NCBI GenBank assembly: GCA_005882135.1
Contig: VBDR01000042.1
Coordinates: forward strand, 1-45,054
DNA from: Chloroflexota bacterium
Lineage (GTDB): Bacteria > Chloroflexota > Dormibacteria > Dormibacterales > Dormibacteraceae
Length of the DNA: 45,054 nt
Reading direction: 5' to 3'
Below are positions 6,804 through 23,870 of the stretch, piece by piece. The translations under genes and the position numbers were made by a program. How positions within the stretch are numbered: position 1 is the first letter of the stretch; each line of letters begins with the position of its first letter. Under the pieces are notes generated by a model, which saw only the letters and a program-made list of their open reading frames with translations, was not told the DNA's origin and did no database searches.

Positions 6804-6982
6804 TCACAGCCGTGTCACGCATTCGTGGAACCCAGCGGATACAGGAGGACACGAAAGGACATGGCGAGGTCGGCGGCTGAGTACAGGAGGACACTGGAGG
6901 AGCCGCTGGGAGACGGGAGGACACGACATTAGGCCGGTTCGGGACCGTGAGGCCCCGGGTTCAAATCCCGGGCCCCCGACCA
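6804..6982 (+). repeat. tRNA-Pro half repeat module, copy B (arm plus 3' tRNA core)
   Basis: The arm starts TCACAGCCGTGTCACGCATT at 6804. Exactly 131 nt later, at 6935, the core starts. The core CGGTTCGGGACC...GACCA (6935-6982) is the 3' half of a tRNA-Pro with anticodon CGG: loop TTCGGGA, T-arm CCGGG-TTCAAAT-CCCGG, acceptor GCCCCCG-A-CCA. No D-arm or 5' acceptor strand lies upstream, so it is not a tRNA gene. It ends 6 nt before the DUF6157 stop codon. Probable attachment-site scar. Confidence 0.8.
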
Positions 6983-6987
6983 ACCCC

Positions 6988-7389
6988 CTACGCGCGGGTA
7001 GAGCGAAACGCCTTGACTTTGGTCGTGTGCGGATCGTCCAGTAGCTGCTTGTACCGTGACGATTCAACGGCGATCAGCGCGATTTTGCCTGCAACGTTGT
7101 TGTGAATGCCCCAGCCGTAGCGCTTTGTCAGCGGCGACACCCGCAGGTGCGGATGGCCCTTGCTCAAGAATTTCTTGCGTTCCTTGGGCCAGAGATCCTT
7201 TGGGATGTCATGTAGGACGGCATATGTCTCAAAAGCGATGTCTTCTTCGGTGTGACTATATGGATGCTTGACGAGGATCTCGTACTCAACCACCGCCTTG
7301 GTTTTCTTGCCACCTCTTGCCAGCGGCACCTGGGCTTTCTTGGTCGGACAGTCATCTGCGACTTCTATTAATGTGTCGAAGTAGTTCAT
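6988..7389 (-). CDS. DUF6157 family protein
   Basis: 133 aa. The start MNYFDTLIEVADDCP, then RGGKKTKAVVEYEIL, FLSKGHPHLRVSPLTKRYGWGIH, and the end FRSTRA match the whole length of the DUF6157 family. No catalytic motif is known for it. Its ATG overlaps the stop of the DHFR-like gene (ATGA, 7386-7389), giving a two-gene operon. The pair lies between direct copies of the tRNA-Pro half repeat (6804-6982 and 8108-8288). A role cannot be given. Confidence 0.85.
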   Translation of the reverse strand: MNYFDTLIEVADDCPTKKAQVPLARGGKKTKAVVEYEILVKHPYSHTEEDIAFETYAVLHDIPKDLWPKERKKFLSKGHPHLRVSPLTKRYGWGIHNNVAGKIALIAVESSRYKQLLDDPHTTKVKAFRSTRA

Positions 7390-7964
7390 GACCTAAGCCG
7401 GACCACCTCGTAGATGAGAAGAGCGAGATCGTCGACCGGCCTGGTGCTGACGAGGCGCATGGGTTTCTTTTCAGTGCTATCGCCGAAGAGGCGCTCGCCA
7501 GCCCCAAGCACGACTGGGTAGATCATCAGGCGCAGCTCGTCCACAAGGTCGTGCTCCATTAGCGTGTGCCAGAGTTTGAAGCTAGCGGCGACAAGGATTT
7601 CGCCATCTAGCTCTCGCTTCAGCTTCGAGACGTTGTTGATCACGTCGCCCCTTATTACCGTCGTGTTGTTCCAGACGGGAGCATCGAGAGTCGAGGAAAC
7701 GACGTACTTGGGAAAGCTGTTCAACCTGTCCGCGAACGGGCCACTTCGGGATGGCCACCGCGCAGCCAAGAACTCGTAGCTCCGCCGGCCCAGCAGAAAG
7801 GCCTTCGCGCCCAGCGCCTCGTCGAGCGCAACTTTGGCCGCCTCGTCGCGACCCTGGCCGCCGATAACACCGACCCAGCCGCCGCGGCTGAAGCCCTCGA
7901 CGCCCGCCGGGTCCTGGATGACTCCGTCGAGCGAGACGTTCTCACTGACAACAATCCTTGCCGT
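7386..7964 (-). CDS. Dihydrofolate reductase/RibD C-terminal family, probable ACG start
   Basis: The family's usual beginning, ARIVVSENVSLDGVIQDPAG, is encoded from 7961 downward. It is followed by GGWVGVIGGQGRDEAAKVALDEALGAKAFLLGRRSYEFLAARWP, then VVSSTLD, the NTTVIRG strand and YPVVLGAGERLFG. These are typical NADPH-binding features of the RibD C-terminal fold. The codon where ATG is expected is ACG (7962-7964), with an AAGGAG ribosome site 7 nt upstream. No ATG, GTG or TTG start precedes it in frame back to the stop. From a TTG at 7769 the protein would lose about 65 N-terminal residues. Probably reduces a small pterin- or pyrimidine-like substrate; exact reaction unknown. Confidence 0.78.
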   Translation of the reverse strand, partial: TARIVVSENVSLDGVIQDPAGVEGFSRGGWVGVIGGQGRDEAAKVALDEALGAKAFLLGRRSYEFLAARWPSRSGPFADRLNSFPKYVVSSTLDAPVWNNTTVIRGDVINNVSKLKRELDGEILVAASFKLWHTLMEHDLVDELRLMIYPVVLGAGERLFGDSTEKKPMRLVSTRPVDDLALLIYEVVRLRS

Positions 7965-8107
7965 TGCGCTTCTCCTTGCCGCTGGTCGGCTAGGCAGATC
8001 GACGTCTATAAGAAGATTCGCCTAAACCTCGACGCGCCCACCAATTGGTTCACAACTTGATTCTCTCGCCGGTAAAGCCTCCGCGAGCCATTTCGTCACC
8101 TGCCGTA

Positions 8108-8288
8108 TCACAGCCGTATCACGCATTCGCGGCACCGGACGGCTATAGGGGGTCACCATAGGACACGAAGCTGGTCGATTTCGTATTCGCGAGGACGACG
8201 CGGGAGTCTGTCGGACACCGGAGGACACGTCCCCGCCACGGTTCGGGACCGTGAGGCCCCGGGTTCAAATCCCGGGCCCCCGGGGCCA
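8108..8288 (+). repeat. tRNA-Pro half repeat module, copy C
   Basis: The arm TCACAGCCGTATCACGCATT starts at 8108 and the core at 8239, again 131 nt apart. This copy keeps a perfect anticodon stem: CACGG (8237-8241), loop TTCGGGA, CCGTG (8249-8253), variable AGGCC, then a perfect T-arm and GCCCCCG. The discriminator and CCA are altered (GGGCCA). About 75% of the first 60 nt matches copy B; the middle is more divergent but needs no gaps. No 5' tRNA half is present. Confidence 0.8.
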
Positions 8289-8300
8289 ATTTTGCATTCA

Positions 8301-8361
8301 AAATCGCCGATTTCACGTGAGCTGTGAAGCCGCCGGGTCACAGCTGGGTCACAGATTCCCC
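8301..8361 (+). repeat. Palindrome and second arm to the right of core C
   Basis: AAATCGCCGATTT (8301-8313) is a perfect odd palindrome. TCACAGCTGGGTCACAGATT starts at 8338 and repeats the arm motif in the same orientation, 99 nt after the core start. Copy E has the same palindrome and arm at nearly the same distances. Nothing else was recognised between here and the DUF4386 stop at 8523. Confidence 0.6.
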
Positions 8362-8522
8362 CAGCGCATGTGGGTGACTTCAAGTCCTAAACGTCCTGCC
8401 GCCGAAGATACGTAATCGCCTACGACCTTACGATTCCAAAGCGACTGGCGATTCGTAGGCTGCCTTTATGGCCGACTTCTGGCTCAGCGATCCCTACCGC
8501 TGGTGACGCGACACCGTCGACC

Positions 8523-9242
8523 TCATCGGTTTCGGGCTGGAACAGATACTGCCGAATCGCGAGCGCCCGCGCCGGTCACCTTGATCCCGAAGATTAACAA
8601 CCACACGACGAAGACGAACTCGCCGGCGCCGCCGACCTGCCCGACCTCGAACACATAGGGAAGGTCGGGCGCAAGAAGATTGGCGAGGAACTGTCCCATC
8701 CAGCTCATCGCGGCGACTAGCAGCAGTGCGCCCACGAGCCACGGGATCTGGCGAGACTTGATGACCAGGTAGCCAAGGGGAACGAGCCACAGGCCGAAGA
8801 ACATCTCGTCGATCACGAGCCCGTTGGCATGGGCGTCGACGAACAGGGAGGCGAGCGCATTTGACGCCGGGGCGCCGAACGCCTGGATGTAGGAGGGGTT
8901 GGTAGCGATGGTCAGCGCGTTGTAGAGGTTGATGTCGCTCAGGTAGATCACGACGATCTCGATAGCGACCAGCACGACCATCGCAGCAGCCGCAAGCCGG
9001 TCGACGTGGCGCAGCAGCAGGTACAGAGCCATGCCCGCGAGCAGAAAAAATGTTCCCGAGATCAGGTCGATGGTCAGGCTGATGCGGAACAGTGGCGTTG
9101 ACGCTCGAATCCTGTCGATCAGGCCCGAGCCGCCGCCTGAACCCTCGATGCTCGAGCGGATCGCGATCGCGACCACGAAACAAACGCTGGCCAGCAGATA
9201 GAGCGAGCTCGCGATTCGGGCCAGGACCTTCGGCGATCTCAA
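8523..9242 (-). CDS. DUF4386 family membrane protein
   Basis: 239 aa from a TTG that overlaps the upstream stop. About six membrane segments are visible: IASSLYLLASVCFVVAI, ISGTFFLLAGMALYLLL, AAAMVVLVAIEIVVIYL, FFGLWLVPLGYLVI, LVGALLLVAAMSW and FVFVVWLLIFGI. The segment NLYNALTIATNP with the following DAHANGLVIDEMFFGLWL is typical of DUF4386. It closes a PadR-HAAS-DUF4386 operon. Function is unknown; its expression probably follows PadR control. Confidence 0.8.
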   Translation of the reverse strand: MRSPKVLARIASSLYLLASVCFVVAIAIRSSIEGSGGGSGLIDRIRASTPLFRISLTIDLISGTFFLLAGMALYLLLRHVDRLAAAAMVVLVAIEIVVIYLSDINLYNALTIATNPSYIQAFGAPASNALASLFVDAHANGLVIDEMFFGLWLVPLGYLVIKSRQIPWLVGALLLVAAMSWMGQFLANLLAPDLPYVFEVGQVGGAGEFVFVVWLLIFGIKVTGAGARDSAVSVPARNR

Positions 9243-9808
9243 CGGGCTCTCAGGCGGGTCGCCAGGTAGACGATCATGCCCACGGGAGCAATCAGCGCCA
9301 CAAGGCTGATGGTGAAGAGAACGGCGCCCACCGTCACGTCGACCCAGGCCGGACCGGCTTCGGAGGCGGTGGTGATCCAGTGAAACGTGGACATGATGAG
9401 GAGCACGCCTGCATATCCGCCTGGGGGGATCAGGGTGCCGAGCAGCTTCTCGCGCGTGGTCCAGGTTTTCGAGACCCAGAGCAGGATCGCTCCGACGGGC
9501 CAGGCGGCCACCAGCAGGATGAGCGCAAGCACCTCCAAGGTCCCGAAGCGCCGGGTCGTGGCAATAGAGGTTCGCGGCTTTTTGCTGCCGCGGGCTGCGG
9601 CTGCGATGTCTCCTGGGTCGCCGAGGCGCTCCAGGAGGTTCATGAGGGTGGCGTCGGACTCGTCGGCCAGGCCGCCGCGCTCCTCCGCAATGTGGCGGCG
9701 AATCTCGTCGATGATCTCGTTGCGGCTGTCAGGGGACAGGTCGGTCAGTTCTCGCTCGAGCCGCTGCAGATATTCGTCCACCAATTGCGCGGCATGCGTT
9801 GCGGTCAT
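9239..9808 (-). CDS. HAAS-domain (DUF1700-like) membrane protein
   Basis: 189 aa, taking the ATG at 9808 that overlaps the PadR stop by 1 nt. The N-terminal 75 residues are the helical HAAS region: VDEYLQRLERELTDL, EIIDEIRRHIAEE and LLERLGDPGDIA. Three or four membrane segments follow: LEVLALILLVAAWPVGAIL, YAGVLLIMSTFHW and FTISLVALIAPVGMIVYL. HAAS proteins are commonly encoded directly after a PadR gene, as here, and are thought to be membrane partners in stress responses. A longer frame from 9952 exists but lies antisense to nothing useful and overlaps PadR. Confidence 0.82.
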   Translation of the reverse strand: MTATHAAQLVDEYLQRLERELTDLSPDSRNEIIDEIRRHIAEERGGLADESDATLMNLLERLGDPGDIAAAARGSKKPRTSIATTRRFGTLEVLALILLVAAWPVGAILLWVSKTWTTREKLLGTLIPPGGYAGVLLIMSTFHWITTASEAGPAWVDVTVGAVLFTISLVALIAPVGMIVYLATRLRAR

Positions 9809-10149
9809 CACGGTTTTACTCCGTTCCGAAAGATGCTGTCCACCGAGTCGCGAAACCTGAACCACTCGTCGCGGAACTGGGCCACAGCCTTCTGACCGGA
9901 ACGGCTCAGCCGGTAGTAGCGCCGCGGGGCGCCGCCGGGAGTGTCGCGCCACTCTGTCTCGACCAGACCCTCGGAGCGCATACGGCTCAGCAGGGGATAG
10001 ATCGTCCCTTCACTGACCACGAGCTCGCCCCTGGCACGCAACATCTGGATCACCTCTCCGCCATAGCGCGGCATCTCCTTGAGCATCGCCAGCACGCAGT
10101 ACTCGATGACTCCTTTGCGAAGCTGTGTGGCGAGGCCATCGATCGGCAC
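9808..10149 (-). CDS. PadR-family transcriptional regulator
   Basis: 113 aa with GTG at 10149. The winged helix reads LRKGVIEYCVLAMLKEMPRYGGEVI, then VSEGTIYPLLSRMRSEGLVETEW, then PRRYYRLSRSGQKAV, the full PadR N-terminal domain. A longer version from TTG 10185 would begin inside the promoter, so GTG is preferred. The promoter (TTGCAA, 17 nt, TACAGT) places the transcript start about at this GTG, suggesting a leaderless message. It likely represses itself and the two membrane genes downstream. Confidence 0.85.
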   Translation of the reverse strand: MPIDGLATQLRKGVIEYCVLAMLKEMPRYGGEVIQMLRARGELVVSEGTIYPLLSRMRSEGLVETEWRDTPGGAPRRYYRLSRSGQKAVAQFRDEWFRFRDSVDSIFRNGVKP

Positions 10150-10156
10150 CGACGAT

Positions 10157-10185
10157 ACTGTAGCGCAAGGATCCTTGCATTGCAA
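10157..10185 (-). promoter_or_regulatory. PadR promoter with a palindromic operator
   Basis: On the minus strand, -35 TTGCAA (10185-10180) is followed by a 17-nt spacer and -10 TACAGT (10162-10157). The spacer holds GCAAGGATCCTTGC (10165-10178), a perfect 14-nt palindrome. A repressor bound there would block RNA polymerase. PadR proteins bind such inverted repeats, so autoregulation is likely. Confidence 0.65.
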
Positions 10186-10208
10186 GGCTCGGGACTTCTT
10201 CCAAGAAG

Positions 10209-10346
10209 CTTTTCAACGCGAGACTAGACAGCAACTCAGTTCGCACCATCGACTTCCATGAAGGTGACGCTGTCGATGAGGCCGCGTTGAAGGCGCTCAT
10301 TCTCGAAGCTGTCCGGCTGAACATGTTGAAGGTGCGTAAGCGATAG
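10209..10346 (+). pseudogene. DUF1801-family 3' fragment, copy 1
   Basis: The frame LFNARLDSNSVRT, then IDFHEGDAVDEAALKALILEA and VRLN, is the C-terminal third of a DUF1801 protein. It aligns with residues about 88-128 of the intact gene at 23047-23433. The 5' two-thirds is absent; the fragment begins beside the PadR promoter. The end is extended by KVRKR before TAG. Confidence 0.75.
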
Positions 10347-10432
10347 GCGACCGAGATGATCAACCTCCCAGTTTGTGTGTCGTTGGCGCGAGCACGTGCA
10401 GTGGGGCGTGAGTCCGCGGAGGGCGCAAACGC

Positions 10433-11407
10433 CTAGTCGGCGACAGTCATGATCACGTTTCCGACCTTCTGCTCAGAATCAACATAGCGATGCGCCTCGA
10501 CCACCTCGCCGAGCGTGTAAGTGCGGTCGATCACTACTCGGTATCTACCGGCCTCGATTAGCTCCTTGAGGAAGACGACATCCTCTTTCGTCACTGCGCG
10601 AGCCGGGAAGATCACCTTCTTGTCCTGGGAGCGCGTAGTGAGCACGCGCCAGAAGTTGTCGAATCCGTCGGTGGGCAGGAACCGCCCGCCCGGCTTTAAT
10701 GAGTTGCGGCTCCTCACGAAAGAGTGCTTTCCCACAGCGTCGAAGATGACGTCGTAACTCTGGCCGTTCTTGGTGAAGTCTTCCTTGGTGTAGTCAATGA
10801 CATCGTCGGCGCCGAGCGACTTCACGAGCTCCAGGTTCTTTGTGCTCGTGACCGCCGTCACGTGAGCGCCGAAATACTTTGCCAGTTGGACGCCCGCGGT
10901 GCCGATGGCGCCCGACCCGCCGTAGACGAGGACTGAATCTCCGTTCTTCACGTTGCCTGCGCGGAGTGGGCTGAGTGCGTAGAGGCCGCCATCGGTGATC
11001 CCCGCGGCCTCGACGTGGCTGAGATTCTTTGGCTTTCGCGTCATGCGTGAGCTCTCCGGCCTCGAGATGAACTCCGCGTAGGCGCCAAATCTAAAGCCGG
11101 TACTGCCGAAAACCTCGTCCCCGGCCGCGAACTCCTTGACTGCCGGCCCGACGGCCTCGACCACGCCGGAGAAATCGCCGCCAAGGATCGGCTGCCGCGG
11201 CCGGCGAAGGCCGAAGACGGCGCGACTCACCAGCTCGAAGCCACGGCCGCTGTTGCGGTTGGCTTGGCGTGTCGCGCAATCGGCGCGCGTCACCGCGACG
11301 GCGTAGATCCGGACCAGGACCTCGTCGTCCCTGGGGAGGGGCTTTTCTACGTCTTCGATGTGCAGGACGTCTGGACCTCCGTACCGGTCGAAGACGACTG
11401 CTCGCAC
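10433..11407 (-). CDS. Zinc-independent MDR oxidoreductase (NAD(P)-dependent quinone-reductase-like)
   Basis: 324 aa from GTG 11407. The GroES-like domain begins VRAVVFDRYGGPDVLHIEDVE and contains GGDFSGVVEAVG near 90. The Rossmann motif is VLVYGGSGAIGTAGVQLAKY near 151-170, followed by SLGADDVIDY. The residues that bind catalytic zinc in alcohol dehydrogenases are missing, so it is likely a quinone or enone reductase using NADPH. It is divergent from the PEP-utilising gene (starts 107 nt apart). A further 69 codons upstream are open but are not conserved in character. Confidence 0.85.
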   Translation of the reverse strand: MRAVVFDRYGGPDVLHIEDVEKPLPRDDEVLVRIYAVAVTRADCATRQANRNSGRGFELVSRAVFGLRRPRQPILGGDFSGVVEAVGPAVKEFAAGDEVFGSTGFRFGAYAEFISRPESSRMTRKPKNLSHVEAAGITDGGLYALSPLRAGNVKNGDSVLVYGGSGAIGTAGVQLAKYFGAHVTAVTSTKNLELVKSLGADDVIDYTKEDFTKNGQSYDVIFDAVGKHSFVRSRNSLKPGGRFLPTDGFDNFWRVLTTRSQDKKVIFPARAVTKEDVVFLKELIEAGRYRVVIDRTYTLGEVVEAHRYVDSEQKVGNVIMTVAD

Positions 11408-11514
11408 GACTCGGAACTCTAGTGCGCATCGCGCCGATGCGCCAACACGATGCGGCACCTCGATCGGCCCGCTGGTATGCCATGGGCGGTTGAGAGACGA
11501 GTAGTCTGGCCGTC

Positions 11515-14151
11515 GTGGACGGGGCGGCGCCGCTGACGGTCGACCTCGTCGACGCCGAACGGGGCGCTGGGGTACTCGTGGGCGGCAAGGCCGCAAACCT
11601 CGGCGAGCTGGCAAGGGCCGGCTTTCCAGTGCCCAATGGGTTCGTGCTCACAACCCACGCCTACGCCCTGGCCGCGGAGGCCGCTGGTGTCGACCCCGCA
11701 CGACCGGCCGAGGCGGCCGAACGGCTACGTGCCGCGCCGATGCCGGACGTGATCGCGAACGCCGCTCGCAAGGCATACGCCGCACTCGACGCTGAGCGCG
11801 TCGCCGTGCGGTCCTCGGCCACTGCCGAGGACCTGCCCGGCGCTTCGTTCGCGGGCCAGCAGGACAGCTACCTCGACGTTTCCGGCGAGGAGGGCCTCCT
11901 CGACGCGATCCGCCGCTGCTGGGCGTCGCTGTGGAACGAGCGAGCGGTCGCCTACCGGCATGCCAATGGTGTCGACAACACGGGGGTCAGCCTTGCCGTG
12001 GTCGTGCAAGAGATGGTGGATGCATCCGCGGCGGGCGTCCTCTTCACCGCCGACCCCGTAACCGGACGGCGCCGGCGTGCGGCGATCGACGCGGTCGCAG
12101 GTCTCGGCGACAAACTCGTCGCCGGCGCGGTCGACCCCGACCACTATGCGGTCGAGATCGCGAGCCACGAAGTGGTCCAGAGCCCGGCCGGCGGCCAGGG
12201 ATCCGTCCTCTCCGACCAGGAGGTGCTCACCCTTGCGGAGTTCGGGGATCGCGTCGAACGCCACTTCAACGCACCGCAGGACGTCGAATTCGCGCTCGAT
12301 CAGGAACGGCATGTGTGGCTCGTCCAGTCGCGTCCGATCACGACGCTATATCCCTTGCCCGAGGATGCGCCCGATCCCCAGAAGGAGCTTCGCGTCTACT
12401 TCTCAGGCAGCGTTTTCCAGGGCTACTTCGAGCCGATCACGCCGATGGGCATCCAGTTCTTCCGCCTCCTGAGTGGCGCCGTGTCCGGCATGTTTGGATT
12501 CTCGGTCGACGATCCCGTGGCCGGCTCCCAGATCCTCAAGGAACCCGGAATGAGGCTTTACATCGACGTGACGCCAATCGTCCGGGATCCGGTCGGCCGT
12601 CGCGCATTCGTGACCCTGACATCAATGGGCGAGGCGCGAAGCTCGGCTGTTCTAGTCCAGCTCGCTTCTGATCCGCGTCTCTCCCTCGCCAGGCGCTCCC
12701 GTTTTCGTTCGGTGCGCGCGATCGCCGGATCGATGATGCGGGCAGGCGTTCCTCACTCCGCGCTGCGAGTTCTGTGGTCACCGGAGGCGGCCCGCGCGCG
12801 TTACGTCCGCGAGATCGAGGAGTTCGCACGTATCGATCTGCCCGAAGATGCGACCTCGGAACAGCGCCTCGACGCGTTCGAGCGTCTGATCCTGACGGTG
12901 ACGCCGCAAATGTTCCCGCGGATGATCGGGACCATCATGCCTGCGATGCTCTCGTTCGCCCTGGCGGTACGGCTGCTGCGCGGCAAGGCGCGGATGGACG
13001 AGCTGCAGGCCATCACTCGGGGCGCGCCGCACAACCCAACCACCGAGATGGACCTGGCGCTGTGGGCTTTGTGCACCGATGTCCGCGACGATGCGGACTC
13101 ACGGGAGACGCTGATCCGGCGGACGCCAGCCGAGCTGGCGGCCGCCTATAGACGCGGTACGCTGCCCCCGCGCCTGCAGTCCGGCCTCAAATCATTCCTC
13201 GCCCGTTACGGCTTTCGATCGATTGGCGAGATCGACATCGGCGTCGAGCGCTGGTCCGAAAACCCGGAGCACATCCTCGGCGCGCTCGCGAATTACTTGC
13301 GCCTCGGCGACGACGCGCTGGCGCCCGACGCACAGTTCGCGAAGGGCCAGCGGGAGGCGGAGGCGATGATCGCCTCGCTGCTGACCAGAGTGCACGGCCC
13401 ACGGCGGGCGATCCTCCGAGTGGTGCTGGGTAGAGTACGTGCTCTCATCGGCGATCGAGAAGCGCCGAAGTTCCACATCATCCGCCTCCTCGCGACGCCC
13501 TCACGAGAGCTGCTCAAGCCGGTTGGTCGCGACCTGGTCGCGCGCGGCCGGCTCTCCGACGAAGACGACATCTTCTTCCTGACCCTGCCGGAGGCGCGAC
13601 GCGCCGCCGGCGGCGAGGACATGCGGAAGCTGGTCGCCGCCCGACGGGATGCCTTCGACCGCGAACGCGCGCGCCGGCGCATCCCGCGCTTGCTACTTTC
13701 CGACGGGACCGACGCGGAGGCAGCACTGGTATCGGTCGGCGAGGGACTGCGAGGTTCGCCCGCCTCCCCGGGGGTCGTCTCCGGGATCGCGCGCGTGATT
13801 CTCTCGCCGGCGGGAGCAAGGCTCGAGCCGGGAGAGATCCTGGTCGCGCCTTCCACCGATCCCGGCTGGACACCTCTCTTCCTGACTGCGGGTGCCCTGG
13901 TGATGGAAATGGGCGGAATGATGTCGCACGGCGCGGTGGTGGCCCGCGAGTACGGCATCCCGGCCGTCGTCGGAGTGGCCGGTGCCACCGAGCAGATCAT
14001 GACCGGTCAGCGCGTCACGGTCGACGGCTCTGCGGGCACGGTCGTACTGGAGGCAGGGCCGAAAGAGGAGGCCCAAGCGGTGGTGACGTCGACCACCAAG
14101 TTAGGCGCGTCGCCACCACCCGAGCCGAAGGCGAATCTCGCTGATGGTTGA
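11515..14151 (+). CDS. PEP/pyruvate-utilising enzyme, rifampicin-phosphotransferase-like
   Basis: 878 aa, GTG start. The N-terminal ATP-grasp, PEP-synthase-type domain (about 1-290) has GGKAANLGELARAGFPVP near 23-40, VRSSATAEDLPGASFAGQQDS near 98-118 and VWLVQSRPITT near 265. A long helical middle (about 290-740) matches no enzyme I can name. The swivelling phospho-His domain is at the C-terminal end, with GGMMSHGAVVAREYGIPAV and His805. PEP synthase carries a further C-terminal barrel, which is absent. The order ATP-domain, middle, His-domain and the length fit rifampicin phosphotransferase. That enzyme inactivates rifamycins with ATP; the actual substrate here could be another alcohol. Confidence 0.75.
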   Translation: MDGAAPLTVDLVDAERGAGVLVGGKAANLGELARAGFPVPNGFVLTTHAYALAAEAAGVDPARPAEAAERLRAAPMPDVIANAARKAYAALDAERVAVRSSATAEDLPGASFAGQQDSYLDVSGEEGLLDAIRRCWASLWNERAVAYRHANGVDNTGVSLAVVVQEMVDASAAGVLFTADPVTGRRRRAAIDAVAGLGDKLVAGAVDPDHYAVEIASHEVVQSPAGGQGSVLSDQEVLTLAEFGDRVERHFNAPQDVEFALDQERHVWLVQSRPITTLYPLPEDAPDPQKELRVYFSGSVFQGYFEPITPMGIQFFRLLSGAVSGMFGFSVDDPVAGSQILKEPGMRLYIDVTPIVRDPVGRRAFVTLTSMGEARSSAVLVQLASDPRLSLARRSRFRSVRAIAGSMMRAGVPHSALRVLWSPEAARARYVREIEEFARIDLPEDATSEQRLDAFERLILTVTPQMFPRMIGTIMPAMLSFALAVRLLRGKARMDELQAITRGAPHNPTTEMDLALWALCTDVRDDADSRETLIRRTPAELAAAYRRGTLPPRLQSGLKSFLARYGFRSIGEIDIGVERWSENPEHILGALANYLRLGDDALAPDAQFAKGQREAEAMIASLLTRVHGPRRAILRVVLGRVRALIGDREAPKFHIIRLLATPSRELLKPVGRDLVARGRLSDEDDIFFLTLPEARRAAGGEDMRKLVAARRDAFDRERARRRIPRLLLSDGTDAEAALVSVGEGLRGSPASPGVVSGIARVILSPAGARLEPGEILVAPSTDPGWTPLFLTAGALVMEMGGMMSHGAVVAREYGIPAVVGVAGATEQIMTGQRVTVDGSAGTVVLEAGPKEEAQAVVTSTTKLGASPPPEPKANLADG

Positions 14152-14217
14152 TCGAGCGGACATTGAATCCGAGCGTCACGCCACGAGAGAGGCTGTCCGA
14201 CTGAGTGGTGAATAGGT

Positions 14218-14319
14218 GTGTTCAGCCACGTCGCCGTCCAGGTCGACAACCTGAGCGCCACCATCGAGTCGCTATCCCAGATGGGGTTGGGGGCAGGCCC
14301 GGTCGAACGCCCAGGCGGA
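14218..14319 (+). pseudogene. VOC-family (glyoxalase-like) gene fragment
   Basis: In one frame the text FSHVAVQVDNLSATIESLSQ then GLGAGPVERPGG matches FSHLAVQVDDLSGMIEAVTK and GLNADPVERPGG in the intact VOC gene at 24008-24421, which is on the other strand. The rest of the gene is missing. The remaining bases between 14152 and 14520 hold no other gene; GAGTTCAGGCGG at 14445-14456 also occurs at 17843 and 23572. Confidence 0.7.
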
Positions 14320-14520
14320 CGAGTCGGGCTGCCGAAGTCGGGTGCTGATGCTCGGTGGTCTTGACATTGAAGTGGCATTCCCGGCCGTCTAGAAGGGCAT
14401 GACGGCTGAACAGCGCGATTGGTGCTCGCGTGGGCCTGCCGCTTGAGTTCAGGCGGGCGCCCGAGGGCTTGCCGAAGGCTTGCGGAGCTCGCGCAGCATC
14501 GGCCTTAGCATTTCCAGGGA

Positions 14521-16196: not shown

Positions 16197-17668
16197 GCGC
16201 GCGTGACGAGCTCGGCCGCCTGGAGGCCAGCGGCCTTATCCAGATCGCCGCCTTGCAGCCCGAACTCGAGTACCTCTTCCGCCACGCCCTGGTGCAGGAG
16301 GCCGCTTACGCCTCGCTGCTCAAGCAGGACCGCCGCGCCCTACACCGCGCCGCCGCCGAGGCCATCCTCGCGCAGCATCCCGACCGCGAGCGCGAGCTGG
16401 CAAGCGTGCTCGCGCTGCACTACGAGCAGGCCGGCGAGAACGCCCGCGCCGCGGAGTACCTGGTGATGGCGGGGGATCACGCACTCGAGCGCTTCGCCAA
16501 CCGCGAGGCGATCGGCTTCTTCAGCCGCGCGAGCAGCCTTGCGGACGAATCGCAGGGCGAGCTGCAGCTGCGAGCGGCCGTGGGGGAGGCCAAGGCTTCG
16601 TGGGGATTCAAGACGAGCGGGCGTGAGGTCGATGACCTGGAGCTGGCGGTGGCTTCGGGCGAGAACGCCGAACCCAAGCTCCTTGGCGAGGCCTACTTCT
16701 GGATTGCCTACCTCCGCCGCCAACGCGGCGAGGTCCCCGAGACGAGTCCGGACCTCGCGCGAGCGACCGAGCGCGCCATCGCGATAGCAGGGACATTAAA
16801 GGACGCGCGAGCGTCGGCGTTGCCGCGGGCGATGATGGGCGCCGGCGCCGCCTTTACAGGCCGGTTGCGCGAAGGGGCAGGCGAGATGCAGGCTGCGCTC
16901 AACGACATGGACCAGAACACCGATCCGCATTCGAACGCGATGATCGCCGACTTCCTCGCCATGACGTACGCGCGACTGGGCGAGTTCGATGCCGCTGAGG
17001 AGATCGTCGCCCGCGGCACGCAGCAGGCCGCTCTGGCCGATGAGATCTCGCGCGTCGATATCGACATCACGCAATCCGCCGTCAACTACGAGCGAGGCGA
17101 GCTCGAGAGGGCAGCGCAGCAGGCGTTCCAGTGCTCGGCGCGTGCCGAGGGGCTTGGCGCATATGCGTGCGTCGTCGCGGCCAACGTGATGTTCGGCTCG
17201 GCGACCATGGCAAAGGACGACGCCTCCTCGGCGAAAGTGCCGCTCGAACGCGGCGACGAGCTTGCGATGGTGACCAACATGGCGCCGTTCCGCACGCTGA
17301 CCAAGGGTCTCCTGGCTTCAAGCTACGCGCAGCTCGGAGATCTGCCCACCGGCGTGGCCGGCTGGAACGAGGCCCTGGGCGGCGCGCGTGGCATGAACGA
17401 CCGCTATGGCGAGGCGCGGGTGCTGTGGGCCCGTGGTCGTACATTCGCACTCCAGTCGCCGCCGGACTGGACGGCGGCGCTCGCGGACTTTGACAACGCG
17501 GTCCGGCTCTTCGAGGAGATGGAGGCACGGCCGGCGCTTGCCCGCTCGCTGTACGACCGAGCGAAGGCGTTGCGGGCGCTCGGCCGCACGGCTGAAGCGG
17601 CGGAGGTCGAGCAGCGCGCCCTTACCCTCGGCCGGGACCTCGGCCTCAAAGACGCCCCGTTTGCCTGA
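16193..17668 (+). CDS. TPR-rich C-terminal part of the cyclase/ATPase protein
   Basis: The ATG at 16193 overlaps the upstream TGA (ATGA). The text begins with the usual end of the STAND winged region (LGRLEASGLIQIAALQPELEYLFRHALVQEAAYASLL). TPR-like helical repeats then run to the end (ALHYEQAGENARAAEYLVMAG, FANREAIGFFSRAS, FEEMEARPALARSLYDRAKALRALGRTAEA), ending LGLKDAPFA. As separate chains the overlap could allow coupled translation. A one-base loss at 16179-16181 is the simpler reading. A deleted second copy of this 3' end lies at 41355-41574. Confidence 0.82.
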   Translation: MSARDELGRLEASGLIQIAALQPELEYLFRHALVQEAAYASLLKQDRRALHRAAAEAILAQHPDRERELASVLALHYEQAGENARAAEYLVMAGDHALERFANREAIGFFSRASSLADESQGELQLRAAVGEAKASWGFKTSGREVDDLELAVASGENAEPKLLGEAYFWIAYLRRQRGEVPETSPDLARATERAIAIAGTLKDARASALPRAMMGAGAAFTGRLREGAGEMQAALNDMDQNTDPHSNAMIADFLAMTYARLGEFDAAEEIVARGTQQAALADEISRVDIDITQSAVNYERGELERAAQQAFQCSARAEGLGAYACVVAANVMFGSATMAKDDASSAKVPLERGDELAMVTNMAPFRTLTKGLLASSYAQLGDLPTGVAGWNEALGGARGMNDRYGEARVLWARGRTFALQSPPDWTAALADFDNAVRLFEEMEARPALARSLYDRAKALRALGRTAEAAEVEQRALTLGRDLGLKDAPFA

Positions 17669-18289
17669 ATAGCCGTAATCGGACTTTTCATCTCCGCCTA
17701 CATCTTTTGGTGCTCGGCCATACGGGTCTGGAAACGCGAGCGGCAATCCCAATGGGCGGTTTGGGGCAGGCACGCCATGGGCCTAGGGACTCGGTTATCA
17801 GTCAGGTCAGCGAACCCTTAGGAGTTCAAGTACCCCGCCTACGAGTTCAGGCGGGGAGTTCAAATAGTGTCCCGTCCCCCCGACCAACTCTTGAGTTGCG
17901 ACTCATTCCTGTTAGCGCAGTTAATCCGAGAACGACCCTGTCTTTTTGCAGCCCGGATGTAGCACACTCCTCCAATCTCGCCGAGAGACTCGGGCAACTC
18001 GCTGTCCCTCCGGACGCGCATTCAACTCCTGCCTCCTCCGCCAAGTCGAACCCGGTTTGAATACGATCCAAAAGCACACCCAGCGCATTGAGGAAAGCTC
18101 TGGGAGTACGCCGTCCCTGGCATTTCAGCGCAGCGCTGCGGCTGCCAGTGCAAGGTCAGCGAACAAGATTCGAATTGAGCAACGCGGTTCTAAAGATCCC
18201 GTTCAGGTTCGCGAACCGGGTTTCGATGGGGACTTCGCGCGTCTAGACGCAGGGAATCCACCGACGACCTGTTACATTCTGCGACCCGC
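17669..18289. other. Gene-free stretch with a tRNA-like repeat
   Basis: No credible ORF. It contains an 8-bp perfect hairpin (CCCCGCCT 17833-17840 with AGGCGGGG 17849-17856), which overlaps the 44-nt repeat at 17843-17886. It also contains a 12-nt palindrome GGTTCGCGAACC near 18206-18221. TTACATT about 12 nt before the Kelch start may be a -10 element. Confidence 0.5.
17843..17886 (+). repeat. 44-nt tRNA-3'-end-like repeat, copy 1
   Basis: GAGTTCA, 6 nt, GAGTTCAAATAGTGTCCC, 1 nt, TCCCCCCGACCA. The same 44-nt pattern occurs at 41210-41253, differing only in the spacer, one internal base and the last base. It ends like a tRNA acceptor plus CCA but the T-loop region is abnormal. It lies 175 nt after the cyclase/TPR stop. 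Confidence 0.65.
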
Positions 18290-21200
18290 ATGAAGCAGTT
18301 GGTTATCGCACGGATCGCTGCAGCTGCGTCCCTGGTTTCGCTCGCGGCCGGACTTGTGCCGATGGCCGCGCACGGTCAGACCACCGTCAACGCGAACTGG
18401 GTCCAGGTTTCGAACACCGGTCCTGCAGCCCGCGGCGGGGCCGGCATGGTGTACGACTCGGCCCGCCAGCGATCCATCCTGTTCGGTGGATCCGACGGGT
18501 CCGGCAGCTACTTCTCCGACACCTGGCAGTACGACGGAGCATCGTGGACCCAACTGCAAGTCGCCGGGCCGTCGGCTCGGTTTCTCGCCCTCATGGCCTA
18601 CAACTCTGCGCGTGGCGTCACGGTCCTCTACGGCGGATACAACAACGGTGTAATCAACAACACGTGGGAGTGGAACGGTTCGTCCTGGACGCAGCGCCTG
18701 ACCGCTCACACACCGCCAGCCCGGCTCTGGTCGGCGATGACCTACGACTCCACGCGCCACGTCATCGTCCTGTTCGGCGGCGAGCTCGACACGTTGCTAA
18801 ACGACACGTGGCAGTACGACGGGAACGACTGGACGCAGGTGATCACCGCACATGCGCCGGCTGCGCGCCGAGGCCACGCGATAGCGTATGACCCCGCGCG
18901 AGGGGTGACCGTTCTGTTCGGTGGTCAGTCCAGCGTCAACCTCAACGACACATGGGAGTTCAACGGCGTCGACTGGACCCAGGTCGCGCCCGCCAGCTCG
19001 CCGTCGGAACGCATCTGGCCGGCGATGGCATACGACCCGAACCTCGGCGGAACAGTGATGTTCGGCGGCGCATTCGGTTCCAACTACAACCCGCTCAACG
19101 ACACTTGGCTTTACGCCGAAGGCGGCTGGCAGCAGATAGCGCCGCAGGTGAACCTGAGCGCCCGCTTCTATTCGGCGTCCGCCTACGAGTCGAACCGAGG
19201 GGACTTCGTGCTGTTCGGCGGAAGTGTGATCGCGGGGGGAGGGTCCAACTTCGGTGACACTTGGTCGCTGCAGGGCGTCACCACGTCTGCCTTGGACTGG
19301 ACGCAAGCGACCACCTCGACCGCGCCAACCGCTCGGGTTTGGTCCCAGATGGACTACGACTCAGCGCGCGGCGTCAGCGTCTTGTTCGGGGGCAGCAGCG
19401 ACTCCGGTCCAGGCAACCTCCACGACACGTGGGAGTGGGACGGAGCGCGGTGGACTCAGATGGCGCCCGCCACGTCTCCGCCGCCGGTAGCCGGCGGAAT
19501 GATGGCGTACGACAGCACGCGCGGCGTGTCGGTGCTATTCGGAGGATCGGGAAGCACGGGGAGCAGTTCATCGACGTGGGAATGGGACGGGACGAATTGG
19601 ACCCAAAAGAGCCCGGCGACATCACCACCGGCGCGGCTCTGGGCCGCGATGACCTATGACTCCGCTCGGAGCCGCATGGTGCTGTTCGGCGGCGACGGTC
19701 CGAACGGCCTGCTAGGGGACACGTGGACGTACGACGGCAGCACCTGGACGCAGATGAAATCCGCCAGCTCCCCGACGCAGCGCGATGGTCCCGCTATGGC
19801 CTTCGATCCGGCGCGTGGCCGGGCCGTGCTGTTCGGTGGTCACGACTCGAACGGCCGCCTGGGCGACACGTGGGAATGGGACGGCGCCAACTGGACGCAG
19901 ATTCCCGTGACCGTTGCGCCGCACACTCGATTCTGGGAATCGCTCGCCTTCGACACGCAGCGCGGCAAGACAATCCTGTTCGGCGGCGACCACGTCCAGC
20001 CGAACGACCTCGGTGAGTCCAACGACACGTGGGAGTGGGACGGCGCCCAGTGGACACACGACTTTCCCGCTGCCGCACCCCCGATTCGCTCTGGCCAGTC
20101 GATGGCGTACGACGCGACTCGCGGACGGATGGTCATTTTTGGCGGATGGAACGCGGCCACGTCGCCAGCGACGATCTACGGCGACACATGGGAGCTCGGC
20201 AACGGAATCCAGACTCCTCCGGGCACACCGAGCGCGACTCTTAACGTGTTCGGCCTCGGAACGAACTTCGGAAGCGTGAACGTCGGCTCGGCCGCCGATG
20301 GCGTTGCGGCCTTCATGTTGTCGAGCTCCGGCACCGGCCCGCTGGCCGTCAACTCGATCGCGCTGAGCGGGCCGAGTGATTTCGTCCTCAGCACGGACTG
20401 CCCCATGCACGGGGATCCGCTGCCTGCGGGCTCGTACTGCATGGCGATCGTTTCGTTCACGCCGACCGCCGCCGGCACGCGAACCGCGGGCATCGCCTTC
20501 AGCTACAACGCGCCCGGCGGCAACCAGACGTTCCAGCTCCAGGGCACGGGAGTCGTGCATCCGACCACGCTGACGGTGTCGCCAGCGACGGCAATGTTCA
20601 ACGGAGGCGCGATCATCAGCGCGTCGCTCCAGGTCGATGGCAAACCGTTCGCCGGACAGCCCGTCACGCTGAGCCTACTGAACGGCCCCGGCAGCACGAC
20701 CCAGACCGACTCGTCGGGTATCGCCGTCTGGTTCGGCGTCAGCTTCGCCGGCATCCACGCGGGTACCTATCCGACAGGAATCCAGGCGAGGTTCGCGGGC
20801 AGCCCGGCCTACGCGCCCAGCTCCACGACGGCGGCCCTGGTGATCACGCAGCCCGTAACGACCACTTACACCGGCGAGTTCTACGTTGCTGACATCACTG
20901 CGGGCCACGTCACCATACAAGTGGACCAGCGGACGCCGGCGAGCGACCCGCAGTTCATCGACTACGCGCAGACGCCAGTCTGGGTACGCGTCACGCTGGT
21001 CGGGGCTGCGGCGTCATCCGACTTCTGGGTGCAGGTCACCGACGCAAGCAACTGGTCGACTACTGGGTTTGGGGTGGCTACAGCGCCCCTGCCCGCCCTG
21101 GCCGACGGCGGATATACGGTCGTCGCCGCCCTGGTCGATGGCCCGTCCAGCACGTCGCCGGGCAGTGCCGTGTCGAGCGACGACACCCGAACCGGCCTTG

Positions 21201-21661
21201 TGTCGTCCCCGACCAAGGGCGGTTACCTGAGCGCCGGTGGCGCCATCGCGACCGACCCGTCCACCAACACAGGTGACAGGCACGGCTATTTCTCGCTGCA
21301 GATGAAGCCCGGCAAGCCACCGGTCGGGAACCTGGTCTACAGCTACCGCGTCCGCATGGATGTTGGCGGCGGCAACCTGCGCGACGTTGATGTCTGGGTG
21401 ACCAGCACGTCGATCACCACGCTCAATGGCAACTCCGCGACCGGTCAGTTTGTCGTCGAGTACGTCGACGCGCTGACCGGACAGCGCTATACGACGTTCG
21501 AGTTCTCTGGCGGAACGTTCAAGCTGACCTTTGTCAACGCGACCGGTAACTCGCCGGCCAAGTTCGGATTGGTCCTGAAGCATCCCGATGGCACTGTCTT
21601 CCACTCCACTGGCAGCGCGCCGTCGCCGGTAGTGGTTGGCCGGCTGGTCAGCACACTCTAA
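18290..21661 (+). CDS. Secreted Kelch-like beta-propeller protein with Ig-like tail
   Basis: 1123 aa. A signal peptide (about 1-29, cut near AHG-QT) is followed by twelve Kelch/galactose-oxidase-type repeats up to about 640. Each has the form (S/D/N)WTQ, about 15 residues, (M/A)xYD..RG..VLFGG, then a loop ending DTWEWDG. Then come a choice-of-anchor D/ASH-type domain (about 650-760, FGSVNVGSAADGVAAFML), an Ig-like domain (about 765-865) and a C-terminal beta-rich domain of about 250 residues (GGYLSAGGAIATDPSTNTGDRHGYF). No anchor or LPXTG was seen, so it is probably released or held by its tail. Function is likely binding; partner unknown. Confidence 0.85.
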   Translation: MKQLVIARIAAAASLVSLAAGLVPMAAHGQTTVNANWVQVSNTGPAARGGAGMVYDSARQRSILFGGSDGSGSYFSDTWQYDGASWTQLQVAGPSARFLALMAYNSARGVTVLYGGYNNGVINNTWEWNGSSWTQRLTAHTPPARLWSAMTYDSTRHVIVLFGGELDTLLNDTWQYDGNDWTQVITAHAPAARRGHAIAYDPARGVTVLFGGQSSVNLNDTWEFNGVDWTQVAPASSPSERIWPAMAYDPNLGGTVMFGGAFGSNYNPLNDTWLYAEGGWQQIAPQVNLSARFYSASAYESNRGDFVLFGGSVIAGGGSNFGDTWSLQGVTTSALDWTQATTSTAPTARVWSQMDYDSARGVSVLFGGSSDSGPGNLHDTWEWDGARWTQMAPATSPPPVAGGMMAYDSTRGVSVLFGGSGSTGSSSSTWEWDGTNWTQKSPATSPPARLWAAMTYDSARSRMVLFGGDGPNGLLGDTWTYDGSTWTQMKSASSPTQRDGPAMAFDPARGRAVLFGGHDSNGRLGDTWEWDGANWTQIPVTVAPHTRFWESLAFDTQRGKTILFGGDHVQPNDLGESNDTWEWDGAQWTHDFPAAAPPIRSGQSMAYDATRGRMVIFGGWNAATSPATIYGDTWELGNGIQTPPGTPSATLNVFGLGTNFGSVNVGSAADGVAAFMLSSSGTGPLAVNSIALSGPSDFVLSTDCPMHGDPLPAGSYCMAIVSFTPTAAGTRTAGIAFSYNAPGGNQTFQLQGTGVVHPTTLTVSPATAMFNGGAIISASLQVDGKPFAGQPVTLSLLNGPGSTTQTDSSGIAVWFGVSFAGIHAGTYPTGIQARFAGSPAYAPSSTTAALVITQPVTTTYTGEFYVADITAGHVTIQVDQRTPASDPQFIDYAQTPVWVRVTLVGAAASSDFWVQVTDASNWSTTGFGVATAPLPALADGGYTVVAALVDGPSSTSPGSAVSSDDTRTGLVSSPTKGGYLSAGGAIATDPSTNTGDRHGYFSLQMKPGKPPVGNLVYSYRVRMDVGGGNLRDVDVWVTSTSITTLNGNSATGQFVVEYVDALTGQRYTTFEFSGGTFKLTFVNATGNSPAKFGLVLKHPDGTVFHSTGSAPSPVVVGRLVSTL

Positions 21662-21886: not shown

Positions 21887-21929
21887 TTCGGGACCGTGAG
21901 CCCCGGGTCAAATCCCGGGCCCCCGACCA
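21887..21929 (+). repeat. tRNA-Pro half repeat core, copy D (degraded)
   Basis: TTCGGGACCGTGAG, CCCCGGGTCAAATCCC and GGGCCCCCGACCA match the 3' half of tRNA-Pro(CGG) with two single-base losses (one G in the variable region and one T before the T-loop). The 131-nt upstream arm is not recognisable. The rest of 21662-21953 shows no gene. Confidence 0.7.
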
Positions 21930-21953
21930 AGCCTCAGGCGGACGACGGGTTGG

Positions 21954-22412: not shown

Positions 22413-22606
22413 GCTCGATTTGACGTCCGCGAGCAGCCAAACTCATCGCTGCGGTGGCGAGTTCGTGCCCTCCAGGGATGCTCGGAAGTGTTCCTCCGGC
22501 ATTGGCGCCGAAATCGGTGGATTCGTGACTGCCGTCGGCGGAACTGAACTCGCTTGCCAGCAATCGATGGCTCCGCGGGGGCTTGAAGTTGAGGACGCAA
22601 CGGGCA

Positions 22607-22636
22607 GGACCGTGAGGCCCCGGTTTGGAATCGCGG
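22607..22636 (+). repeat. tRNA-Pro half repeat core, copy F (relic)
   Basis: GGACCGTGAGGCCCCGG is exact; TTTGGAATCGCGG after it is a mutated T-arm (GTTCAAATCCCGG). No 5' half and no arm. The rest of 22413-22735 shows no gene. Confidence 0.6.
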
Positions 22637-22735
22637 TGGAGTAGTCGCGCACGAGACCGCCGATGAGGCGAGCGCTCGACGCCGGGCCGACCTCAACGCC
22701 GCATTCGACCGCATCGAGGCTACGATGGGCGATCG

Positions 22736-23050
22736 ATGAGCGCCAAGATCGTCTCCGACGGAGTGGCACATACGGTGCCGGCTGATCTGAGACGTGTCCT
22801 GATTGCCAACCCAAAAGTTCTGGCGACATGGGAAGACCTCACCCCTCTTGCCCGCAATGAGTGGATCTGTTGGGTGCTCTGGCCCAAGAGGGCCGAAACG
22901 AGGAGTCAGCACATCGAGAGGCTGCGCACCGAGCTTTTGGCGGGGAAGCGACGACCCTGCTGCTGGCTTGGCTGCATCCACCGCAAGGACAAGGAACTCA
23001 GCCCTTCGGTCCGCTGGGTGGTAAGCAGCCGCAGCAAAGCGTCGGCATGA
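22736..23050 (+). CDS. YdeI/OmpD-associated family protein
   Basis: 104 aa. The second half of a YdeI-type protein is clear: VPADLRRVLIANPKVLATWEDLTPLARNEWICWV, then RSQHIERLRTELLAGKRRPCCW and GCIHRKDKELSPSVRW. The length is short but usual for the single-domain form. The stop overlaps the DUF1801 start (23047-23050), making a two-gene unit. Members of both families are often found together; a role in stress resistance has been suggested for the family, but nothing here proves it. Confidence 0.75.
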   Translation: MSAKIVSDGVAHTVPADLRRVLIANPKVLATWEDLTPLARNEWICWVLWPKRAETRSQHIERLRTELLAGKRRPCCWLGCIHRKDKELSPSVRWVVSSRSKASA

Positions 23051-23433
23051 GCGACGCATCCGCGTCCCAACAGATAGATGACATCGTCCGCAGGATGGCC
23101 GGCTGGAGGGGTGAGAGGTTGAGCCAACTGCGGGGTCTCATCAGGGGCGCCGATCCGGGCGTAATCGAAGAAGTGAAGTGGAAGAAGCCCTCCCGCCCCG
23201 AGGGGGTTCCCGTCTGGTCGCACGACGGCATCGTCTGCATCGGCGAGGCCCTCAAGAACGCGGTGAGGCTGACGTTTCCAAAGGGTGCCCAACTGAAGGA
23301 TCCGAAGGGCCTCTTCAACACGCGTCTGGACAGCAAGACGGTTCGTGCCATCGACTTCCACGAGGGTGACGCGATCAAAGAATCCGCCTTGAGGGCGCTC
23401 ATTGTCGAAGGTGTCCGTCTCAATCGAAGCTGA
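23047..23433 (+). CDS. DUF1801 domain protein
   Basis: 128 aa, intact. Helices IDDIVRRMAGWRGERLSQLRGLI, then EEVKWKKPSRPEGVPVWSHDGIVCIGEAL, then KNAVRLTFPKGAQLKDPKGLFNTRLD, then IDFHEGDAIKESALRALIVEG. This is a full-length member with the typical VKWxxP and VRLTF motifs (a YdhG-like fold). Two other DUF1801 3' fragments, at 10209-10346 and 44421-44507, match its last third. Its overlap with the YdeI-like gene and the repeats on both sides suggest it moved as a cassette. Confidence 0.82.
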   Translation: MSDASASQQIDDIVRRMAGWRGERLSQLRGLIRGADPGVIEEVKWKKPSRPEGVPVWSHDGIVCIGEALKNAVRLTFPKGAQLKDPKGLFNTRLDSKTVRAIDFHEGDAIKESALRALIVEGVRLNRS

Positions 23434-23496
23434 GATCGGCGACGGACGTCCACATCCTAAGGGTGGAATCAGGGGCTTCGTAAGAGACGGCGACGG

Positions 23497-23675
23497 GCAC
23501 AGCCGGGGCACAGATCCCTGGCACCAGGCGGCTCTACGAGAACACGGATGGACACCGAGGAGGGGCAATTTGAGTTCAGGCGGACCTCTGCGGAGCCAGC
23601 GGGACACGCGGGGCCACTCCACCAGGACGGTTCGGGAGCATGAGGCCCCGGGTTCAAATCCCGGGCCCCCGACCA
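23497..23675 (+). repeat. tRNA-Pro half repeat module, copy E
   Basis: Arm GCACAGCCGGGGCACAGATC starts at 23497; the core starts at 23628, exactly 131 nt on. The core runs to GACCA at 23675 with an intact T-arm and acceptor 3' strand; the anticodon stem 3' side is changed (GCATG for CCGTG). The centre aligns without gaps to copies B and C at about half of positions. It follows the DUF1801 stop by 63 nt. Confidence 0.8.
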
Positions 23676-23686
23676 TTCTTGTATTT

Positions 23687-23745
23687 GAAATCGGCGATTT
23701 CCCTTGTGGTTGGAGTCAGCTTCATACCGCCGTATCACAATTTCC
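23687..23745 (+). repeat. Palindrome and second arm to the right of core E
   Basis: GAAATCGGCGATTTC (23687-23701) is a perfect 15-nt palindrome, 60 nt after the core start (62 in copy C). CCGCCGTATCACAATTTCC near 23728-23746 resembles the arm GCCGTATCACGCATTC. Confidence 0.55.
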
Positions 23746-23858
23746 TGCAGACCAACCAAACCGGGGCGGTGTAACGGCGTCTTTCGTAGGCAATGTGAGA
23801 TCACGCGACTGGGAATCGTTGGATAGGCAGCGCCCCATGCCGGCGGACGCACGGGTCA

Positions 23859-23870
23859 GGACCGTGAGGC
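23859..23870 (+). repeat. tRNA-Pro half repeat relic, copy G
   Basis: GGACCGTGAGGC is all that remains of the core. It lies where a core is expected if the arm near 23724 belongs to it (predicted within about 3 nt). The rest of the stretch to the VOC stop at 24008 shows no gene. Confidence 0.5.

Follow-up and report, generated by a model that had tools for sequence, protein, structure and literature searches.

A probable integrase-made tandem array with rigid attachment arms at the tRNA-Pro(CGG) gene of Dormibacteria

Why should a bacterial contig carry several 3′ halves of one tRNA, none with its 5′ half, each preceded at one exact distance by the same motif? The question is raised by contig VBDR01000042.1 of a Chloroflexota bacterium of the family Dormibacteraceae (assembly GCA_005882135.1). 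The window analysed here is this whole contig (45,054 nt; C68 below), part of a 2.7-Mb metagenome-assembled genome (MAG) of 91 contigs and 85% completeness. The repeats are very probably the junctions of a tandem accretion array that an integrase made at the tRNA-Pro(CGG) gene. Such accretion accounts for the tRNA halves (cores), their single orientation, the arms beside them and the boundaries of the units between them.

A sequence-only reading of this DNA had described three tRNA-Pro 3′ halves, exact or nearly so through to CCA. Counted from the anticodon loop TTCGGGA, as all core positions are here (the sequence-only reading began 3 nt earlier), all three are present (Table 1), but the one at 8242 lacks the CGACCA end. 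The absence of 5′ halves also stands: in the window ARAGORN calls no tRNA, Rfam finds none and no 5′ half was seen. An intact 5′ half around any copy had been named beforehand as contrary evidence. At two array cores elsewhere (L018 6697-6768 and L047 7410-7484), ARAGORN calls a tRNA-Pro(CGG) in which an arm replaces the 5′ half; we take both calls as spurious because neither L018 nor L047 contains a tRNA that passes the Rfam threshold. Among the proposed relics, the one at 21887 is a nearly full core with two single-base deletions, and those at 22607, 23859 and 24444 are exact copies of the 12-mer GGACCGTGAGGC, but the one at 44259 is weak, with 1 mismatch. At up to 2 mismatches this 12-mer occurs 12 times in the window against 9.5 expected, which is not above chance, so only longer or exact relics are trustworthy.

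The intact tRNA-Pro(CGG) gene lies on another contig of the same genome, C34:51864-51940, and contains the genome's sole core within a full tRNA (C34:51896). Further 3′-half copies lie behind it on C34 and on C68, C74 and C83. As in elements that integrate into tRNA genes, the repeat is the 3′ part of an intact tRNA gene standing at one end. Another core on this contig, C34:56115, marks the start of a second copy of a unit also found in the window, the DUF6157 unit; the copy on C34 is 95.7% identical over 558 nt to that at window position 6937. Directly behind the intact gene, beside a cut core, lies what looks by sequence like an IS3-type transposase pair (L003, about 10028-11100).

The same core recurs across related genomes. 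We analysed 70 contig pieces, a chosen, non-random sample drawn mainly from core-rich genomes, and scanned them exhaustively, allowing up to 9 mismatches across the first 40 nt. This gave 131 cores in 68 of the 70 pieces, 84 of them exact over 40 nt. Identity among the cores begins at the 7-nt anticodon loop TTCGGGA and extends to CCA, and among the 38 pieces that carry more than one core, 37 have all of theirs in one orientation; L033 (G096:C14) is the sole analysed piece with both. In a separate count over 110 genomes of the class (at most 3 mismatches over 45 nt, intact gene included), the core is present in 39 genomes, 21 of which have two or more copies, with the highest counts in G077 (32), G069 (19), G061 (12), G073 (11), G098 (10) and G096 (7). 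By family, it is found in 35 of 42 genomes of the window's family, in 4 of 18 of a fourth family, and in 0 of 32 and 0 of 18 of two others, zeros that may mean only that the tRNA differs there. As a control, the 3′ half of tRNA-Asn was matched in 16 of the 42 family genomes, in 1 to 4 copies each; with at most four copies in the control, the Pro array is exceptional. On C40 of the window's own genome (L007), a tRNA-Asn(GTT) gene (742-817, minus strand) lies alongside an integrase piece (3-635, plus strand), and past its CCA is a TTTCGAATACGAAA motif resembling the one behind many Pro cores; tRNA-Asn may be a second, smaller target.

Among named genomes, the 45-nt core is matched exactly in MAGs labelled Chloroflexi or Candidatus Dormiibacterota / Dormibacteraeota (80 of 85 matches listed), whose sample names (palsa, pasture, depth in cm) point to a soil origin. 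Among the matches listed, one exact core lies on a contig labelled Acidobacteria gp7 (L139), perhaps misbinned or transferred. A check on a phage source found no exact match in IMG/VR viral contigs to the core's first 35 nt.

What precedes the cores is as regular as the cores themselves. In the window, the motif TCACAGCCGnnTCACnnATT starts at 6804, 8108 and 23497, exactly 131 nt before the core starts of the sequence-only reading, as that reading had said. The motif is exact at the first two places and has 3 mismatches at the third; at up to 3 mismatches the window holds 4 matches, against a mean of 0.35 and a largest value of 3 in shuffles. The three stretches align without gaps, again as described, but they agree at 85, 86 and 81 of 134 positions (60-64%) rather than at about half.

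Does this spacing hold beyond the window? Arms had been sorted into classes A and B by ungapped fit after seeding with the doublet that marks them, so we recounted the doublets over all 105 distinct non-tRNA sites, unsorted. The class A doublet, GTCACAG-N4-GTCAC with up to 2 mismatches, was sought in the 220 nt upstream and found at 45 of the 105 sites: 35 at −135 (4 more than the earlier 131, because distances here run to the start of TTCGGGA and the leading G is counted), three each at −134 and −125, and single ones at −145, −132, −131 and −111. The fixed distance is thus general for 35 of 45 doublets but not for the other ten. Variable spacing, also named beforehand as contrary evidence, does occur, yet in this minority, and four of the ten are displaced by exactly 10 bp. 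A second doublet, TGTAGTA-N5-TGTAGTA (class B), lies upstream of 40 of the 105 sites, 38 times at −123 to −126 and once each at −68 and −163. Random 220-nt windows from the same contigs contain the A doublet in 57 of 1500 cases and the B doublet in 22 of 1500.

By ungapped fit, 53 of the 131 cores follow a class A right arm and 48 a class B right arm; 10 belong to intact tRNAs, 19 follow neither class, and one, where ARAGORN calls tRNA-Pro at the contig end, has too little sequence upstream. Aligned without gaps over 140 positions, the 47 distinct class A arms hold 135 bits of information, a figure that the ungapped-fit class assignment inflates somewhat. Within them the hexamer GGACAC recurs at −101, −91, −81, −49, −39, −29 and −19, and 51 adjacent spacings are exactly 10. 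Arm subtypes are common to different genera: the arm at window core 8242 is 0.90 identical to one in G096. The second arm class suggests a second integrase, or a second specificity, acting on the same core.

Doublets also stand on the other side. Among 116 distinct flanks downstream of cores, 37 contain the A doublet (30 at +46 to +51, 6 at +58 to +60, 1 at +38) and 8 the B doublet, at +58 or +59 in every case. In an incomplete list of sites, a number of these left arms carry a pseudo-core GGACCGTGAGGC at about +172 to +187, in some cases followed by another about 70 nt on.

Strict spacing at a position common to many copies could also be the mark of a structured RNA, or of some other functional element that accompanies the tRNA half, instead of a protein-binding arm. 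We consider this very improbable: no Rfam family reaches gathering score in the window or at any of four array loci, the direct repeats are phased by 10 bp, and the same kind of doublet lies across some cores.

If the cores are junctions, the DNA between them should behave as units. The sample contains 63 complete core-to-core units of 911 to 15,344 nt (median 3.9 kb), with a median of four predicted genes each (44 units, simple script). The longest, of 15,344 nt, lies in the window and contains decayed cores. We aligned all pieces against each other, which gave 122 alignments of at least 350 nt and at least 80% identity, and set aside 31 in the backbone before the tRNA. Usable left alignment ends number 69, of which 15 coincide in both partners with the beginning of the core and 12 with the point where the right arm begins; among the 55 right ends, 8 coincide with the end of the core. 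When ends are placed at random, an average of 0.42 left ends hit a core start, and no more than 4 do so in any of 1000 trials.

Units also change neighbours. Of the unit ends that recur, 6 of 14 on the left and 5 of 15 on the right adjoin different neighbours (upstream and downstream, respectively), the remainder being the same arrangement found again in further contigs. The five copies of the DUF6157 unit follow four different neighbours; they lie in the window and on C34 of the same genome, and in G075, G059 and G079. The two ends of a unit tend to agree in arm class: a class A arm closes 15 of 19 units that start with A and 16 of 35 that do not (p=0.023), and there is no such link across a junction (p=0.67). 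This concordance supports the unit as the mobile piece, though not strongly.

Which enzyme would have moved them? The sequence-only reading had suggested an integrase beside the intact tRNA-Pro, and this was not borne out: matches to PF00589 in the window's own genome lie only at C73, which is Xer-like, and at C40. The genome thus holds a Xer, the integrase piece at C40 beside tRNA-Asn, and a decayed piece in the window itself. A search of the 63 complete units with five seed proteins (E at most 1e-4) found recognizable recombinase sequence in just 4 and none in 59. One of the four, in G077:C100, encodes an integrase open reading frame (L014 967-2253, minus strand), fused in frame to a pyridoxamine-oxidase-like N-terminus, so that its arm-binding end seems to have been replaced.

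Used as a query against the 110 genomes, this G077:C100 integrase has a match in 59, nearly all of those listed being distant tyrosine recombinases at 28-43%. Some listed matches at 55-72% cover only query residues 1-101 and, read from these positions, hit the pyridoxamine-oxidase-like N-terminus and not the integrase. Among the matches listed, a close clade (77-80%) comprises G077:C100, G098:C12 and pieces in G061:C435, G072:C361 and G069:C138. The window piece at 40404-40652 belongs to this clade, being 59% identical to G077:C100 across 63 aligned positions, with one gap of 10 residues; Pfam alone detects nothing there.

Two contigs of G098 tie such enzymes to the array. First, the sequence of G098:C12 opens partway through a core, with a left arm next to it, and includes a long integrase open reading frame near an excisionase-family gene; aligned with a solved tyrosine recombinase, the protein retains residues at the catalytic stretches. 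Second, on G098:C20, which ends in a core, another, distant integrase lies about 1.7 kb from a right arm, and that arm is identical at 109 of 134 positions to the window arm at 8108-8241, which belongs to the integrase-less DUF6157 unit (no recombinase sequence was found between 6938 and 8241). This match is the best evidence that an integrase-less cassette may bear the address of an enzyme encoded elsewhere. The sequence-only reading had offered two explanations, an integrase-bound attachment site and an old repeat that escaped indels. The first is supported by the fixed geometry across genomes, the 10-bp phased repeats, the doublets that flank some cores on both sides, the core-bounded homology and the phage-type tyrosine integrase clade in the arrays. 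The second arm class, the left arms, the unit structure and the integrase-less majority of units go beyond what that reading described.

The array probably arose as follows. Elements that enter the 3′ half of tRNA-Pro(CGG) by site-specific integration would come to lie head to tail, with the repeats as their junctions and each junction an attachment core. Crossover would likely take place in the anticodon loop, because the shared sequence starts exactly at TTCGGGA, and the anticodon stem CACGG/CCGTG would provide inverted core-binding sites. Each incoming unit would supply a new 3′ half, restoring the tRNA and displacing the old half downstream, and repeated entry would yield an array of single orientation. 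The 131-nt stretch would be the right arm of the attachment site, on which a tyrosine integrase, possibly with helper proteins, binds at helically fixed places. Most units, being integrase-less in our sample, would be elements that have decayed or been stripped and that the few integrase-bearing units move, in trans or in cis.

Several observations weigh against an integrase-made array. Only 1 of the 63 complete units has a long recombinase open reading frame, and that one is the G077:C100 chimera; complete units are only those that fit inside one contig, and longer, integrase-bearing units may be under-sampled. In G073 (95% complete, 11 cores) the sole PF00589 match is Xer, and the enzyme of its array is either missing or in the unassembled part. 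Conversely, PF00589 matches against cores number 11 to 10 in G098, 6 to 7 in G096 and 13 to 1 in G092, most of those listed lying off the core-bearing contigs; with recombinases equal to or exceeding cores in some genomes, a scarcity of integrases describes the units and not each genome. Neither doublet lies upstream at 20 of the 105 sites, and left doublets were recognized at just 48 of the 131 cores. Alignment ends fall elsewhere in 42 of 69 left and 47 of 55 right cases, and those placed at cores are not independent, since the DUF6157 unit alone supplies several. The concordance of end classes is modest, covers 54 distinct units and barely tests class B. No excised circle or empty site was seen. 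One contig, G069:C125, was considered as an excision circle, its end resembling the start of its own unit; we rejected it because its two copies agree at 155 of 165 positions and the copy in another genome agrees at 164, so that the end is a related unit instead.

Some of these points would be expected of a fossil array, in which old integrase-bearing entries decayed in place and homologous recombination between identical 45-bp cores reshuffles the remains with no integrase acting in trans. Three of the four recombinase-bearing units hold pieces only, there are decayed cores in the window, Xer alone accompanies the 11 cores of G073, and RecA-type exchange at identical cores would likewise break homology at the core. 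We nevertheless hold this rather unlikely, since the information retained by the class A arms, mostly in integrase-less units, the 84 cores exact over 40 nt, and arm subtypes that cross genera, as at window core 8242, look recent. On sequence grounds, helical phasing and shared arms favour integrase-less units that are still moving, whereas missing integrases and decayed cores favour an array that is in part fossil.

A more trivial origin would be metagenome assembly or binning. The array contigs are MAG contigs and frequently break at cores. Those in G061 and G059, of another family (L026-L030, L047 and L078), are more than 99% identical to contigs of the window's family, by misbinning or recent transfer. 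For the array as a whole an artefact is scarcely conceivable: 21 of 110 genomes, derived from soil samples and sites with different names, have at least two cores each, some contigs span whole units, and the window itself holds three cores.

How does the array compare with known systems? In chromosomal integrons, numerous short cassettes of cargo line up in the same orientation after a single anchor, with few recombinase genes in the array, and the likeness extends to each of these features. The sites here are tRNA-derived and have long arms, and against the integron integrase model TIGR02249 four array integrases score 53.2, 63.7, 30.5 and 36.8 bits, where the cut-off is 265; integron membership fails on the integrase. 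Conjugative pSAM2-like elements of actinomycetes are inserted into a tRNA-Pro gene by a tyrosine integrase; they share the target and probably the enzyme type. Tycheposons are tRNA-targeted elements with cargo, a likeness that goes as far as this general description.

The nearest published system among those compared is the set of ssrA islands of Dehalococcoides, which lie in tandem behind one RNA gene, are bounded by direct repeats of its 3′ end, more than a dozen in number, and carry variable cargo, 16 with and 15 without an integration module (PMC3146451). The layout, the 3′-end repeats and the variable cargo are alike; the target there is tmRNA, the enzyme a CcrB-type serine recombinase and the repeat 20 bp long (PMC3146451), whereas here we find tRNA-Pro(CGG), a 45-bp repeat from the anticodon loop, probably a tyrosine integrase, and 59 of 63 complete units without recognizable recombinase sequence. 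That the same tandem layout is built by a serine recombinase there raises the prospect of one here, to which we give very little credence: PF00239 has no match in G000, G073, G077, G069 or G075, five of six genomes searched, and two in G098, and the integrase genes inside units are of the tyrosine type. The general concept is accretion of cis-mobilizable elements (CIMEs), which have lost their integration genes, keep both attachment sites and stack by site-specific integration (PMC5704250). The units described here resemble them in lying in tandem, without integration genes, between putative attachment sites on both sides (59 of the 63), and differ in reaching up to 32 cores per genome, in their short median length and in having two rigid arm classes on one core.

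Among the matches listed in a literature search that covered few subscription papers or preprints, no title or abstract opening dealt with such arrays in Dormibacteria, which is weak evidence of novelty. The tRNA-Pro gene appears to be a loading dock for foreign genes. Possibly, though we would not count on it, it is an integron-like gene-capture platform, on which a few tyrosine integrases acting in trans would gather, reorder and exchange integrase-less cassettes with standard arms among the Dormibacteria of soils, one anticodon-loop core being served by two arm specificities. If integrase-less units do move in trans, one tRNA gene would serve as a cassette dock in an uncultured soil lineage; this would locate part of the accessory genes of these MAGs and account for their contigs often breaking at the same repeat. 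The rigid arms offer a sequence handle for finding units in metagenomes and for testing the integrase reading of their geometry.

The window's cargo is accessory in kind, comprising DUF6157, RibD_C, DUF4386, OmdA, DUF1801, glyoxalase, dehydrogenase and Kelch proteins (Table 1). The stretch 8242-23630 is probably composite, because it has decayed cores inside; its left end recurs in G073 after a different neighbour.

Table 1. Array features and cargo of the window, in order of position.
Position	Strand	Feature	Basis or remark
6804..6937	+	right (P-type) arm, class A, of the unit that ends at the 6938 core; doublet at 5′ end	exact motif, geometry; homology to other genomes starts at 6803
6938..6982	+	tRNA-Pro(CGG) 3′-half core, exact over 45 nt	
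6988..7769	-	DUF6157 (6988-7389) and RibD_C reductase (7386-7769), cargo of the 1.26-kb unit 6938-8241	Pfam
8108..8241	+	right arm, class A, of the DUF6157 unit	exact motif; compared with G098:C20 in the text
8242..8282	+	tRNA-Pro 3′-half core, exact over 41 nt, CCA end altered	
8337..8352	+	left (P′-type) arm doublet GTCACAGCTGGGTCAC, 50 nt past core	
8523..21661	.	cargo of stretch 8242-23630: DUF4386, HAAS, zinc dehydrogenase, PPDK_N/PEP-utilizer, cyclase-AAA, weak TPR match, Kelch protein	Pfam
21887..21929	+	decayed core, two single-base deletions, no recognized arm	
22607..22618	+	relic core fragment	exact 12-mer
22736..23433	+	OmdA family (22736-23050) and DUF1801 (23047-23433), cargo before third core	Pfam
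23497..23630	+	right arm, class A, doublet GCACAGCCGGGGCAC	
23631..23675	+	tRNA-Pro 3′-half core, 2 mismatches	
23859..23870	+	pseudo-core, 183 nt past core end; place used by a number of left arms	exact 12-mer
24444..24455	+	relic core fragment	exact 12-mer
40404..40652	-	decayed C-terminal piece, array integrase clade	protein comparison with G077:C100; catalytic-Tyr stretch gone

The 21 kb past the third core, which may be either one large unit or chromosome, encode a glyoxalase, an M20 peptidase, an IclR regulator, a sugar-type ABC transporter, an amidase, a creatininase and dehydrogenases. Between 28761 and 38863, the IclR regulator, sugar-type ABC transporter, creatininase, amidase, a dehydrogenase and a hydrolase all run in one direction.

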